41,556 bases of DNA from Clostridia bacterium. Lineage in GTDB: Bacteria; Bacillota; Clostridia; TANB77; RGIG9151. Under the pieces are notes generated by a model. That model did no database searches, had not been told where the DNA came from, and saw only the letters and a program-made list of their open reading frames with translations. The number at the start of each line of letters is the position of its first letter. Position 1 is the stretch's first letter. Below are positions 8,212 to 36,280 of this stretch, piece by piece. The position numbers and the translations under genes were made by a program. The stretch is taken from contig JAFSUW010000028.1 of the NCBI GenBank assembly GCA_017450465.1, positions 1 to 41,556 on the forward strand. Direction: 5' to 3'.

Positions 8212-8275
8212 TCCTCCTTACAAATTGTTATTTATCTGAGTAAATCAAAAAATTACGCGAACCCTGTTCGCGTTC

Positions 8276-8301
8276 GGGCGGGTTAAAAACCCGCCCCTAC
8301 A
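8276..8301. repeat. GGGCG-type hairpin repeat
   Basis: GGGCGGGTT and AACCCGCCC around AAA, followed by CTACA; part of the family A element. Reading toward spoIIE it has no T tract. Confidence 0.6.
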
Positions 8302-8335
8302 GTGTTTGAGCAATCATTTAATATGTTTATTTACT

Positions 8336-8543
8336 ATACATTGGTATAAAACAAATATAAGTGAACTTTTAGTGGAAGTTTGTTACATTTATCCAAAACG
8401 GCTTATGGTGGTCAAAAAAGCTGGATGCTTTTTTGAGTGAGTATGCGACATAGATGTCGTCATACGAACGACCACCATTTGTTTTGGCTATAAATGTACA
8501 AATTGTAACGGCTGTGAACGTTATTTGTTTTATACCAATGTAT
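8336..8543. mobile_element. Nested 208-bp inverted-repeat element
   Basis: A perfect 22-bp terminal inverted repeat (ATACATTGGTATAAAACAAATA and its complement) encloses further imperfect complementarity (ACATTTAT...CCAAAAC...ATGGTGGTC on both arms). Two inner hairpins, CAAAAAAGC/GCTTTTTTG and GTATGCGACA/TGTCGTCATAC, occupy the centre. It reads as a MITE inserted into the family A element. It has no coding capacity. Confidence 0.6.
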
Positions 8544-8583
8544 CAAAATTTATTATTTTTTTCTCATACAAACAACAATTTAT

Positions 8584-12254: not shown

Positions 12255-12455
12255 CGCTTTATTCCTCCTATTGAAAGAAATAATGTCTGACACAAGTTGT
12301 TACTCATGTCTTGGGGCCGATATACGTATGTTTATTTTATATAATATTTTAACTTGTCTCGTAAAGTAATTTCTAGCTTTTTTTATTTAATTAACTAAGG
12401 TAATTTGTTGTTTGTCTGAGTGAATCAAAAAATTACGCGAACCCTGTTCGCGTTC

Positions 12456-12480
12456 GGGCGAATGATATTCGCCCCTACAA
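12456..12480. repeat. GGGCG-type hairpin repeat
   Basis: GGGCGAAT-GAT-ATTCGCCC followed by CTACAA, within family A copy 2. Confidence 0.6.
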
Positions 12481-12523
12481 TTTTGCGGATAAACAGTACT
12501 AATAATAAATTGGCTCAAACTAA

Positions 12524-12550
12524 TGTAGGGGCGGGTTTGTAACCCGCCCG
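12524..12550. repeat. GGGCG-type hairpin repeat, reversed
   Basis: TGTAGGGGCGGGTT and AACCCGCCCG: the same unit in the opposite orientation, with TGTAG first, within family A copy 2. Confidence 0.6.
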
Positions 12551-12564
12551 TGTACAATGTTGGT

Positions 12565-12590
12565 GGGCGGGGATGGAACCCCGCCCCTAC
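12565..12590. repeat. GGGCG-type hairpin repeat
   Basis: GGGCGGGG-ATGGAA-CCCCGCCC followed by CTAC, identical to the copy at 24499-24524 over 26 bases. Confidence 0.65.
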
Positions 12591-12661
12591 GATGTTAGTA
12601 AATCCATTCACTCACATAAACAACAAATTATCTAATTAGCATTTTCTATGTTTTATCGAAT

Positions 12662-17006: not shown

Positions 17007-17039
17007 TAAAAAAATACGGGGCAAGCCCGTATTTTTTAT
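17007..17039 (-). terminator. Intrinsic terminator of the 347-residue secreted protein
   Basis: AATACGGG-CTTG-CCCCGTATT with T7 after it on the minus strand, overlapping the stop codon. Confidence 0.85.
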
Positions 17040-18079
17040 CTGCCACCCCAACTAATATTTGAACTGCCAAATGGTTTTAATGTTGTTAAAACAGTATCAT
17101 CATATTTATCACCTTTATACACATCAAGTATTTCAAATTCTGCCATTATTGGTACAGAAATATCGTTATTAGTATAATTTATATCAAATACCTGTAATGC
17201 TTTCGAATCTTCTAGTTCTAATATATATTCTTCTTTTCCGTCTATTGTTAGCTTTAATGTTTTTACCCTGTTATTATTTTTCCATAATTCATCATCTTTT
17301 GCATAGCCATTAATTATATAAAAACCTTCTAATTTATTATGGAATTTATCAAGTGTTGCTTCTGTAGCATATGACCATTCACTGTCAGGTACATCACCAG
17401 ATTTATTGGCTTTAAGCAACCATTTTTCTAATGCTATTCCTACTTCATCAACCGAAAATTTAGCATCTCCGGCATTCCATTCAGGATATAGAGACCATTC
17501 AAGTTTTTCACAATATTCAATCATTTTACAAATTATTTTCTGACCTACACCATTTCCTTTTGTACCTTCAACCCAGCAATCTTCTGTATAAATATTTCCT
17601 AAATTTTGAACTGAATAATCTTCTTTTTCCCTAGAATATGTTGACGATGACATATATTCTGCCATAAAATCACCATAAATTGAATCACCAATATCAATTA
17701 TTTCAAAGTATATATCTGACGTTTCTAGCCAATCTTCAGAACGATTAGTATCAAGTAAAAAATCTTCCACTTCACTTCGATTATTAAAAATCGCCCTTGC
17801 AATTCTAGAAGGATGTATTTCCTTTATACTCCCTCCACCTACCTCTACTTGTCTTTTTCCTTCATTCCAGTTTATATCTACACCTAATACTTCTGCCATT
17901 GCACGTAGTGGTAAATATGTACTTCCATCTATTACTACTACTGGCTTATCTGTTTGCCATTTTGAACCATTAATTAAAATAGGAAATGTTGCCTGTAATG
18001 CATTAAAGCTTGTTGCTGCAAATGCTACACTACCAAATATTATTGCACAACACAAAAATATTTTTATGAATTTTTTCAC
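17036..18079 (-). CDS. Secreted protein with copper-amine-oxidase-like N-terminal (stalk) domain
   Basis: A 347-residue exported protein. It has a signal peptide (MKKFIKIFLCCAIIFGSVAFA, cleavage near 21-22), then one copper-amine-oxidase N-terminal-like domain (about 27-80) with VVVIDGSTYLPLRAMAEVLG and NWNEGKRQVEV. This domain is common in Clostridia surface proteins and binds no copper by itself. The remaining 265 residues are acidic and not recognised. The GTG start has GGAGG seven bases upstream. It has its own consensus promoter and a terminator. The first 80 residues and the promoter are nearly the same as those of the frameshifted gene at 21912-22525, so the two are paralogues flanking the ribosomal operon. 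Confidence 0.82.
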   Translation of the reverse strand: MKKFIKIFLCCAIIFGSVAFAATSFNALQATFPILINGSKWQTDKPVVVIDGSTYLPLRAMAEVLGVDINWNEGKRQVEVGGGSIKEIHPSRIARAIFNNRSEVEDFLLDTNRSEDWLETSDIYFEIIDIGDSIYGDFMAEYMSSSTYSREKEDYSVQNLGNIYTEDCWVEGTKGNGVGQKIICKMIEYCEKLEWSLYPEWNAGDAKFSVDEVGIALEKWLLKANKSGDVPDSEWSYATEATLDKFHNKLEGFYIINGYAKDDELWKNNNRVKTLKLTIDGKEEYILELEDSKALQVFDINYTNNDISVPIMAEFEILDVYKGDKYDDTVLTTLKPFGSSNISWGGR

Positions 18080-18110
18080 ACAAATTCCTCCTTTGTATTT
18101 TTATATGTTT

Positions 18111-18139: not shown

Positions 18140-18175
18140 TGATTTAAACAAATAGCAATTTATCTAAGCTAATAT

Positions 18176-21911: not shown

Positions 21912-22525
21912 CTAATATATCTTAACAACTTTACCAGTATCATCTACAATAAGTCCGTCAAAAACGACACAAGTAACCACTTCAGTTCCTCCACCTTCTT
22001 CAGCTCCTTTAACATCTTCTTCTGTTGGTGGAAGACCTCCATAAGCATCTATAAAGTCTTCATCTAATTCTTCAAGGCTGTTATATCCCTCATATGATAA
22101 TAAAGCATCCTTACTTACTTCTATATTTTCTAAATATAACCAACTAACTCCTTCTTCATGCATTCTATCCTCCGCAATCCATATGCGTCCATCAAAAAAG
22201 TAATTACCATTTTCTAGTCTATCTATTCTTTTTAATTCAAAACAAAACCATCTGATAAAATGTTCATATCTTTTTCTTCTTTTTTTACTTCTACTTGTCT
22301 CTTTCCTTCGTTCCAATTTATGCCTACACCTAATACTTCTGCCATTGCGCGAAGTGGTAAATATGTACTTCCATCAATTACTACAACTGGCTTATCTGTT
22401 GTCCATTCTGAACCATTAATTAAAATAGGAAAGGTTGCTTGCAACGCATTAAAACTTGTTGCTGCAACAGCTACTCCACTAAATATTAATGCACAAATTA
22501 AACATATTTTTATTACTTTTTTCAC
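21912..22525 (-). pseudogene. Frameshifted secreted protein with copper-amine-oxidase-like domain
   Basis: A GTG start (22523-22525) after AAGGAGG opens a frame for a signal peptide and the same stalk domain as the gene at 17036-18079 (ATSFNALQATFPILINGS, VVVIDGSTYLPLRAMAEVLG). It stops at 22232 after NILSDGFVLN. The protein then continues in the -1 frame (for example RIDRLENGNYFFDGRIWIAE and YGGLPPTEEDVKGAEEGGG) to a stop at 21912. The two frames overlap over about 22232-22316. A run of seven A (about 22283-22289) in that overlap makes an A-AAA-AAA slippery context, so one lost A, a sequencing error or programmed -1 slippage could each explain it. The acidic linker reads better in the first frame, which would put the shift near 22232-22250 instead. 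Promoter and terminator are intact. Confidence 0.7.
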
Positions 22526-22557
22526 TGAGATTCCTCCTTTGTAATTTTTATATATTT

Positions 22558-22600: not shown

Positions 22601-22782
22601 AAATTGTTGTTTATCGGGGTGTTTAGACTTTGTTTTTCCACCTCATCCGTCGCCTTCGGCGCCACCTTCCCCTCGAGGGGAAGGCTTGCGGATAGTGCAA
22701 ATTTAAAGTCTTCCCCTTGAGGGAAAGATGTCACGAAGTGACAGATGAGGTGTTTTAATTCTCCCCTACAAACAATAATTTA
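22601..22782. mobile_element. MITE-like element, family A ends with palindromic core
   Basis: Ends AAATTGTTGTTTATCGGGG and, read inward from the right, AAATTATTGTTTGTAGGGG match the family A ends. Inside is a nested palindrome: CACCTCATC (22639-22647) with GATGAGGTG (22744-22752), a perfect 20-base CCTTCCCCTCGAGGGGAAGG (22665-22684), and a small TCACGAAGTGA hairpin. Hairpins with CACCTCATCCGTC and CTTCCCCT are known to recur in gut Firmicutes genomes (general knowledge). It lies between two genes and encodes nothing. Confidence 0.6.
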
Positions 22783-24498: not shown

Positions 24499-24524
24499 GG
24501 GCGGGGATGGAACCCCGCCCCTAC
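24499..24524. repeat. GGGCG-type hairpin repeat upstream of mazG
   Basis: GGGCGGGG-ATGGAA-CCCCGCCC followed by CTAC, about 27 bases before the mazG start; identical to 12565-12590. Confidence 0.65.
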
Positions 24525-35129: not shown

Positions 35130-36080
35130 TTACTTTGTAACTAATACTGGTTTTATAGGTTTTGGAACAGGAATTGGTTCCGAAATAGAATGCAATCGTG
35201 TGATATTTAAATTATTTACTGTAAATTCTTGGCTTAAATTAGTAACATTTCCTGCTGCATCCTTTGCTGTTATTGTTAGTGTAACTTTACCTACCAATCC
35301 AGCAGGCATCTTAAAGCTTGCTATAGCTGTTTTTCCATCTATTACAGAATTATTTGGTATAATTATTGCTCCTCCTGCTATTACTTCTCTTCCCAAGCTA
35401 TCTGTACCTACAATTTTTCGGCTTAAGCCAAAATTTAATGATTCCATTGCTATATCATCTGTTGCCACTATTTTTACTTCTTTACCTGACATTATTGATC
35501 CACCATTTGGTGTTACTTTTATTGTTGGTGCTTTTGTATCTACATTTGTTTTTACTGTAAATGATTTAGTTACAGTTCTTTCATTTCCCGCTGCATCTTT
35601 TGCTTTTATTGTTATACTATAACTGCCTGATTTATTAAAATTAAATGTTGTCTTTAATGTCTTTTCTCCATTTGCTTTTATTGGTTCCATAACAAATGGG
35701 CCACCTGAACTTAAATTCATACCATTTGGACCTTCTAAAGTTATACTGTGAGAACCTGTTATTGATATTTCTCCCATTGCTGTCTCATCTGTTGCTATTA
35801 CTTCCATTATTGTACCTAATTTTACTGTTCCTCCATTTGGTGTTACTTTTATTGTTGGTGCTTTTTTATCTATATTACCTAATGTACCATGGAAATTTTT
35901 CAAATAACCCGCATCTAATAACTCTTGTAGTGTTAAACCTTTTTGATTTCCAAAAGTACTAAAACTTTTTTCATTCAATTTTGCCTTATTTACGTTAATC
36001 TCATTACTTACTGCCATTGATGGTGTAACCAAAAAAATAGCCATCACCATTACAACTAAAAATTTTGAAAATTTTTTCAT
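35130..36080 (-). CDS. Secreted protein with two bacterial Ig-like repeats
   Basis: A 316-residue exported protein. The signal peptide (MKKFSKFLVVMVMAIFLVTP, cleavage after SMA near 23) is followed by a linker with LTLQELLDAGYLKNFHGTLG, then two tandem Ig-like domains. Both start KAPTIKVTPNGG (about 72 and 185) and end with ITIKAKDAAGNERTVTKSF or ITAKDAAGNVTNLSQEF. The tail is Pro- and Lys-rich (EPIPVPKPIKPVLVTK) with no LPxTG or membrane anchor. It is probably a surface or adhesive protein. AGGAGG precedes the ATG. The DNA repeats make the copy number prone to recombination. Confidence 0.85.
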   Translation of the reverse strand: MKKFSKFLVVMVMAIFLVTPSMAVSNEINVNKAKLNEKSFSTFGNQKGLTLQELLDAGYLKNFHGTLGNIDKKAPTIKVTPNGGTVKLGTIMEVIATDETAMGEISITGSHSITLEGPNGMNLSSGGPFVMEPIKANGEKTLKTTFNFNKSGSYSITIKAKDAAGNERTVTKSFTVKTNVDTKAPTIKVTPNGGSIMSGKEVKIVATDDIAMESLNFGLSRKIVGTDSLGREVIAGGAIIIPNNSVIDGKTAIASFKMPAGLVGKVTLTITAKDAAGNVTNLSQEFTVNNLNITRLHSISEPIPVPKPIKPVLVTK

Positions 36081-36165: not shown

Positions 36166-36280
36166 CTTGCTTGAGCTTATAGATTATGATAATAACTAAA
36201 ACAACAATTTATCTGCTTAAAAAATATATACTTCTTCAAATTAATATGATAGAATATTTTAAGTAAAGGTGGTGATAACT

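Follow-up and report, generated by a model that had tools for sequence, protein, structure and literature searches.

Introduction

MITEs are short non-coding elements that carry terminal inverted repeats, reach high copy numbers and have interchangeable interiors, and integron cassette arrays consist of directional small modules separated by a shared site.

In Neisseria, according to the accessible text of PMC3898611, the dRS3/RS mosaic (NIME) combines a repeat of about 20 bp with 6-bp terminal inverted repeats, present in almost 700 copies per genome, with non-coding units of 30-160 bp in intergenic arrays of 200-2700 bp; dRS3 is suggested there as a recombination site and is itself a phage integration target. 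For other bacteria, the accessible part of PMC3733652 describes dimers of GTAG-type REPs that lie within palindromes, and the insertion of IS elements into REPs is known (accessible part of PMC1525189).

The window considered here is the whole stretch of DNA that was analysed, 41,556 nucleotides forming one entire contig (C17) of a Clostridia bacterium genome of 1,468,166 bases (37 contigs, 94% complete). It carries elements that are bounded by a shared end, referred to as the ring, which is built around the 12-mer AAATTGTTGTTT and is written F when forward and R when reverse. These repeats are real and widespread, and they are probably mobile. A short non-coding repeat is in itself ordinary; the shared ring, the one-way units and the turnover of contents are unusual.

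Ring-bounded elements in the window

Inverted AAATTGTTGTTT pairs delimit positions 8222-8581, 12402-12629 and 22601-22781, which bears out three copies that a first-pass annotation had placed at 8221-8583, 12401-12630 and 22601-22782. A ring-pair test (inverted rings, summed mismatches of at most 2, spacing of 100-400 bp) recovered 3 pairs in the window against a mean of 0.017 and a maximum of 1 in 60 dinucleotide shuffles, and exact 12-mers numbered 3 against a shuffle mean of 0.08. At up to 2 mismatches the 12-mer occurs 30 times where 27.1 are expected, which is not above chance, so isolated degenerate ends carry little meaning. Chance matches in AT-rich sequence were ruled out as an explanation of the family by reversed-pattern controls and by the shuffles. 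The features are as follows (window coordinates).

8222-8581, no strand: element 1, ring-bounded hairpin element of 360 bp (ring pair, folding)
8222-8233, forward: left ring of element 1, AAATTGTTATTT, 1 mismatch (12-mer scan)
8256-8272, no strand: small hairpin CGCGAAC/GTTCGCG, common to elements 1 and 2 (repeat comparison)
8276-8300, reverse: GTAG-type REP hairpin of element 1 (GTAG class after the accessible part of PMC3733652)
8336-8543, no strand: inner element of element 1, core type c, whose 22-bp inverted ends are perfect (inverted-repeat and core comparison)
8570-8581, reverse: right ring of element 1, exact (12-mer scan)
12402-12629, no strand: element 2, the feature under study, ring-bounded, 228 bp (ring pair, inverted repeat, folding)
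12402-12413, forward: left ring of element 2, AATTTGTTGTTT, 1 mismatch (12-mer scan)
12456-12478, reverse: GTAG-type REP hairpin of element 2
12525-12549, forward: GTAG-type REP hairpin of element 2
12565-12590, reverse: GTAG-type REP hairpin of element 2, direction opposite to 12525-12549
12618-12629, reverse: right ring of element 2, AATTTGTTGTTT, change identical to that of the left end (12-mer scan)
18150-18161, reverse: possible solo ring, degenerate (2 mismatches), with GAT flank, partnerless by the ring-pair test
22601-22781, no strand: element 3, ring-bounded, 181 bp (ring pair, folding)
22601-22612, forward: left ring of element 3, exact (12-mer scan)
22639-22752, no strand: core type b of element 3, nested hairpin CACCTCATC...GATGAGGTG (folding, core comparison)
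22770-22781, reverse: right ring of element 3, AAATTATTGTTT, 1 mismatch (12-mer scan)
36199-36210, reverse: possible solo ring, exact 12-mer, GAT flank, partnerless by the ring-pair test

The rings of element 2 belong to a 28-bp inverted repeat that is 89% complementary. Elements 1 and 2 have 59 bp in common (93%), running inward from the left end, so their cores are partly shared and not wholly different; of the earlier description, shared ends with different cores, the ends stand and the cores only in part. All three elements fold far above shuffled sequence (z of -11.2, -9.8 and -6.5 for elements 1, 2 and 3), and among the program-listed ORFs none of 80 or more amino acids lies inside them, in agreement with their being non-coding. 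The lone ends that had been suspected near 18150 and 36200 are indeed ring-like (2 mismatches and exact, respectively, each with a GAT flank), yet both are partnerless and can be listed only as possible solo rings.

Each element sits between ORFs: element 1 is placed between a SpoIIE gene and a gene for a leucyl-like class I tRNA synthetase, element 2 neighbours a gene with a DUF2229 match, and element 3 a small Cu_amine_oxidN1 gene. There is no Rfam match at the elements, the matches in the window being an L20 leader and a tRNA elsewhere. In the loop of the element 3 core, at 22699-22704, stands AAATTT, a possible landing site for another element. A solitary GTAG-type REP hairpin at 24499-24524, identical to 12565-12590, has no rings, so that such hairpins occur outside ring elements too. 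The window also holds a direct repeat of 263 bp (87%) at 17840-18102 and 22286-22548, covering the points where two genes with matches to Cu_amine_oxidN1 begin; of their products the longer (17036-18079) also matches the NADase-translocation F5/8 type C domain. Imperfect repeats (82%) at 35444-35546 and 35774-35876 lie within an ORF (35130-36080) with bacterial Ig-like domain matches.

Copies in the genome and in other Clostridia

The genome-wide search for the ends that the first-pass annotation had proposed returned further copies: with as many as 3 mismatches allowed, the 24-base end is found at 14 places in the window's genome and nowhere in the reversed control, and the exact 12-mer at 36 places against 2 in its reversed control. 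Loci were available for 30 of the 36 12-mer places, and from these and the window 13 complete F...R elements could be read. Sorted by motif, their interiors contain GTAGGGGCG hairpins (6), CACCTCATC (2), GGTCAAAAAA (2), TTTGTCAAAGATTT (3) and GTAGCGGCG (1), and element 1, one of the two GGTCAAAAAA elements, carries a GTAGGGGCG hairpin as well. A GTAG tag with a GC-rich palindrome is therefore a property of part of the cores, namely the 6 of 13 with GTAGGGGCG, a pair being present in element 2, while core types b and d of this genome are without a GTAG hairpin. Comparison of the 13 cores with 140 cores from elsewhere gave no similarity at E <= 1e-4. The only constant part of the family is the ring; the sequence between rings varies freely and may be GTAG-type REP or other hairpins. 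The three copies in the window exemplify the low-copy state, their cores consisting of REP hairpins and hairpins of other kinds. Five contigs (C5, C19, C22, C26, C28) start inside ring elements, as is expected of repeats that break assembly.

Exact F and R rings 119-177 bases apart matched at least 117 stretches which, among the matches listed, come from Clostridia or Oscillospiraceae metagenome genomes. In 14 genomes, picked because they had ring-pair matches, there are 255 paired elements, with none in the reversed control of any genome; the largest counts are 58, 58, 32, 27 and 22 and the smallest is 1. These and the genome-wide counts uphold the view of a non-coding family with conserved inverted ends, interchangeable hairpin cores and many copies. 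The 15-mer RTAAATTGTTGTTTR has 283 and 198 sites in two high-copy genomes (controls 0), and in the first of these, a genome of about 2.7 Mb, the 283 sites amount to roughly one ring every 9.5 kb. A search with the 24-mer at up to 2 mismatches was negative in the two other genomes from the family of the window.

In a viral collection 3 contigs matched, one of them (L217) with a plausible true element. The other two, identical in sequence, lack the usual GRY/R context and are probably chance matches, and an origin of the family in phage was set aside. Rfam had no match in four array loci. Ring-bounded cores of about 612-626 bp recur (L100 2117-2742, L218 3719-4342, L221 2233-2870), the one in L100 being without an ORF of 120 codons. 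Among papers containing the 12-mer or its complement, as far as titles and the starts of abstracts tell and with subscription papers mostly beyond reach, there is no work on such repeats, and a keyword search of the same literature for work on nested MITEs or REPs found nothing.

The ring and its insertion target

A profile of 262 ends has G-R-Y ahead of AAATTGTTGTTT and R behind it, with G at +15, so that the ring reads GRYAAA-TTGTTG-TTTRYC. The inner half of this dyad is weaker than the outer, positions 13 and 14 falling below 0.25 bit, and the outer GRY is retained in 244 of 284 ends with non-repeat flanks. Flanks favour GRT/AYC at inner and outer rings alike. Since the earlier pattern search had itself required the ring, places in the high-copy genome G007 were also read by anchoring on the core and blind to the ring: of 50 places 30 were read, with 27 exact left rings among the 30 and 28 exact right rings among the 29 that could be read. 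In two exceptions (L194 and L196) the left ring is cut and gives way to GAGATGCCC, which is the end of another repeat (GGGCATCTCTAAAAA...) that seems to insert into rings.

In loci L045-L161 an open frame of at least 80 codons lies upstream of 184 outermost ring ends; 29 of these ends are at distance -2 from the stop codon, and in those 29 the TAA stop comes from the ring itself; the peak is thus partly built in, as the ring carries TAA. At three sites a conserved gene seems to have its natural stop in this ring-supplied TAA.

Alleles were compared across congeners with one genome per species, a sampling in which movement between strains is not seen. At site one, G007 and G010 are occupied with different contents (the right ring of G010 is degenerate), G012 is without an element and reads GTGTAAATTTATC, and G008 is without both the element and AAATTT. 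At this site the ends are thereby tied to insertion in a comparative alignment, as had been anticipated, with the empty GTGTAAATTTATC facing the occupied alleles. At site two G010 is occupied and the element-free G008 reads AAGTAAATTTT at the junction, and at site three the element-free G010 allele lacks AAATTT; at one site the alignment of seven congeners next to the insertion is too poor for a judgement. The insertion target is probably the palindromic AAATTT, with two element-free alleles in support, and AAATTT in the empty alleles could instead be the product of precise excision.

As AAATTT is its own reverse complement, a target duplication of 0-4 bp is neither excluded nor fixed by these alleles. 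The junction admits two readings, a blunt join (TTGTTGTTT...AAACAACAA) and a duplication of 4 bp, AATT (GTTGTTT...AAACAAC), and the blunt reading with a target GGTAAT/ATTATC would account for the same change at both ends of element 2 (AATTTG). Outside the ring the target duplication that had been proposed as a check did not appear: 1764 combinations of length and offset in 145 arrays gave a best z of about 3, none convincing, and what remains compatible is 0-4 bp inside the palindrome. Insertion into hairpins generally was also rejected, the flanks being hardly inverted beyond GRY (mean score of 5.74 against 5.44 in re-paired controls, 142 arrays); scores of 10 or more occur in 5 of 142 arrays and in 1.3% of controls.

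Search for an enzyme

A transposase gene bordered by the ends, which the first-pass annotation had suggested seeking, was not found. In the loci scanned for this no transposase-like ORF lies within ring pairs. The search by family covered PF01609 and PF00665 in draft genomes, which easily lose transposase genes: among 12 ring-bearing genomes PF01609 is absent from 9 and present in 3 (5 genes), PF00665 is absent from 7 and present in 5 (7 genes), and both are absent from the window's genome and from the high-copy G007. The 12 stretches holding these genes contain no ring with up to 1 mismatch, and one ring with 2 mismatches (L256). A scan for convergent rings at spacings of 450-5000 bp, as candidates for an autonomous copy, turned up two cases in the loci that it covered: a 614-bp core lacking an ORF, and a stretch of 3.7 kb whose three long ORFs look metabolic by eye. 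Neither was retained. When 3222 ORFs near arrays were clustered, the 45 largest groups were mostly one gene across several species. A crude screen of these ORFs for a RAYT-like motif had no hit, an H-x-LRH motif occurs in 1 of 3222, and a third, loose motif screen gave many matches and was uninformative.

Unit arrays, content turnover and competing explanations

The reading that we favour, with somewhat better than even confidence, is that the window elements belong to a non-autonomous, non-coding family of mobile repeats, mobilised in trans and MITE- or NIME-like, in which the ring is the recognised site and the cores are interchangeable. An enzyme supplied in trans would bind the ring, and anything between two rings could then move. 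The putative enzyme would place elements at GRTAAATTTAYC, the halves of which resemble those of the ring, and rings might be used again as landing sites, whereby modules would be added or swapped. Candidates for it are DDE transposases that use the rings as ends, HUH/REP-type enzymes and site-specific recombinases. The alternatives differ mainly on the class of enzyme, and the confidences attached to them therefore overlap and do not add up to a whole.

The arrays that bear on these alternatives were studied in two high-copy congeners, G007 and G008, and not in the window's genome. Here a common extended form is F-unit-F-unit-F-core-R-unit-R, with a unit length of 75-80 bp in 99 of 108 units (about 77 bp). 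Of the 108 units read, all 90 that matched a profile built from G007 units have the same direction relative to the ring. In G007 (54 arrays) units stand on both sides in 18, on the left only in 15, on the right only in 13 and on neither side in 8 (one-sided Fisher p 0.79), and in G008 (16 arrays) the corresponding numbers are 4, 4, 3 and 5 (p 0.50). None of the 70 cores is made of two units. The innermost left and right units of G007 are no more alike within an array (0.675) than between arrays (0.683), with 612 of 1000 permutations reaching the observed value (17 arrays), and in G008 750 of 1000 do so (4 arrays).

One-way units, independence of left and right and the lack of two-unit cores argue against simple nesting and for single one-way additions at rings. 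It can be proposed, with low confidence, that gut Clostridia have an undescribed non-coding, directional hairpin-cassette system that recombines at the ring, in which single units are gained or lost on either arm and cores are swapped at the same sites by a putative recombinase or HUH enzyme. A more specific version, which we regard as rather doubtful, has a site-specific recombinase cross over at the ring, in the manner of integrons or NIMEs, such that small circles, each with a single unit and a single ring, would integrate wherever a ring stands and give directional arrays, and exchange between inverted rings would swap cores. The array counts just given speak for this version, as do the dyad-like arms flanking a fixed 6-bp TTGTTG spacer and clusters with rings of a single orientation (FF 3, RR 3 and RRRRR 1, of 158). 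It is countered by the basic element, whose rings are inverted and not direct, which a single circle integration would not yield, by the empty site, which is without the 6-bp spacer, and by the failure of the ORF motif screens to reveal a ring-tied recombinase, the single H-x-LRH match included. In one locus adjoining units match at 90%, so plain tandem duplication also contributes.

Contents that differ at corresponding boundaries count in favour of the same version. Among ten orthologous site pairs compared by contents, five (S1-S5) have both boundaries in agreement within a few bases and contents that differ between species: S1, S3 and S4 have no detectable similarity, S2 has short fragments of at most 45 bp among the matches listed, and S5 an 84-bp unit at 80%. 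In the other five the boundaries are shifted, one-sided or trimmed in the coordinates used here, and S10 retains similarity between its contents over 144 bp (72%). Six arrays from a single 20-kb stretch were also compared: 3 have a boundary in common with at least one congener, 1 agrees partially, and 2 cannot be judged. Such turnover may reflect either a few good targets struck repeatedly or contents exchanged at rings.

Nested transposition, in which palindromic elements insert one after another into the middle of their predecessors and one-sided arrays arise through later deletion between direct rings, appears unlikely. It would suit the layered elements and the GRT/AYC context, which is the same at inner and outer rings. 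Layering does exist: in G004, at loci chosen for rings, outer TGTGCNTATCGG-like ends adjoin an exact ring in 14 of 17 cases and a degenerate ring in 1 of 17. This outer layer of G004 is a second terminal repeat (for example L049 173-420 and L160 488-784). As a model of the layered arrays, however, simple nesting is weakened by units that are uncorrelated and are not partner arms on the left and right, by the absence of an unfilled two-unit element among 70 arrays, and by GRYAAATTTRYC, which was found twice in the loci examined for it, neither time between repeat arms by eye. The earlier idea that the family collects smaller palindromes thus survives in part at most; in the two best-sampled relatives the modules are chained by rings in one direction and are not partner arms.

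It is distinctly unlikely that REP/RAYT biology accounts for the family, with pairs of GTAG-type REPs as the mobile part and the ring as merely a preferred palindromic target. GTAG hairpins do make up many cores, the REP at 24499-24524 is ringless, and REP dimers within palindromes are reported from A. variabilis and H. neapolitanus in the accessible part of PMC3733652. Many ring-bounded cores are nevertheless without a GTAG hairpin (types b and d of the window's genome and the listed G010 cores), copies are delimited by rings while cores vary, and the crude RAYT motif screen is negative. A host-conserved intergenic structure that is not mobile (a terminator, attenuator or RNA) would fit the strong predicted folding, the intergenic position in the window and the frequent placement elsewhere at a stop codon (29 of 184 ends at -2), but it is very improbable given that neither the window elements nor the four array loci match Rfam, that congeners differ in content at the same site and some have no element there, and that the stop-codon peak is partly intrinsic to the TAA in the ring.

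One short end brackets unrelated hairpin modules across many gut Clostridia. If modules are indeed added or swapped at the ring, this would explain the intergenic gathering of REP-like palindromes and why some draft contigs end inside ring elements, and it would point to an enzyme that experiment could find.

Comparison with known systems

Ring elements resemble integron cassettes in forming directional arrays of small modules with a shared separating site, and differ in that the modules are non-coding and the arrays point inward from both sides. With MITEs they share short terminal inverted repeats around a non-coding, interchangeable interior and a presence in multiple copies. Unlike MITEs, they show no clear duplication of the target other than, possibly, a palindromic AATT, their units are linked by rings into arrays, and no parent transposase was found in the searches for PF01609 and PF00665; they are accordingly not filed as proven MITEs.

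The likeness to REP dimers and REPINs, so far as the accessible parts of PMC3733652 and PMC3116915 describe them, lies in a GTAG tag with a GC-rich hairpin, often in inverted pairs and in some species within palindromic arms. The difference is that several unrelated core families, with or without GTAG and in many genomes, here lie between copies of one ring, which also joins directional arrays of units.

In architecture the closest system is the dRS3/RS mosaic (NIME) of Neisseria, an analogy drawn from the accessible text of PMC3898611. In both, a repeat of about 20 bp with 6-bp inverted termini separates short intergenic units, the inner terminus being weakly conserved in the ring. dRS3 reads ATTCCC-N8-GGGAAT, whereas the ring is AT-rich with a fixed TTGTTG spacer (GRYAAA-TTGTTG-TTTRYC), and the likeness is therefore one of architecture and not of membership. 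The ring arrays further differ in converging on a central core with inverted rings, and while dRS3 is a phage target, the ring is seen on one plausible viral contig only.
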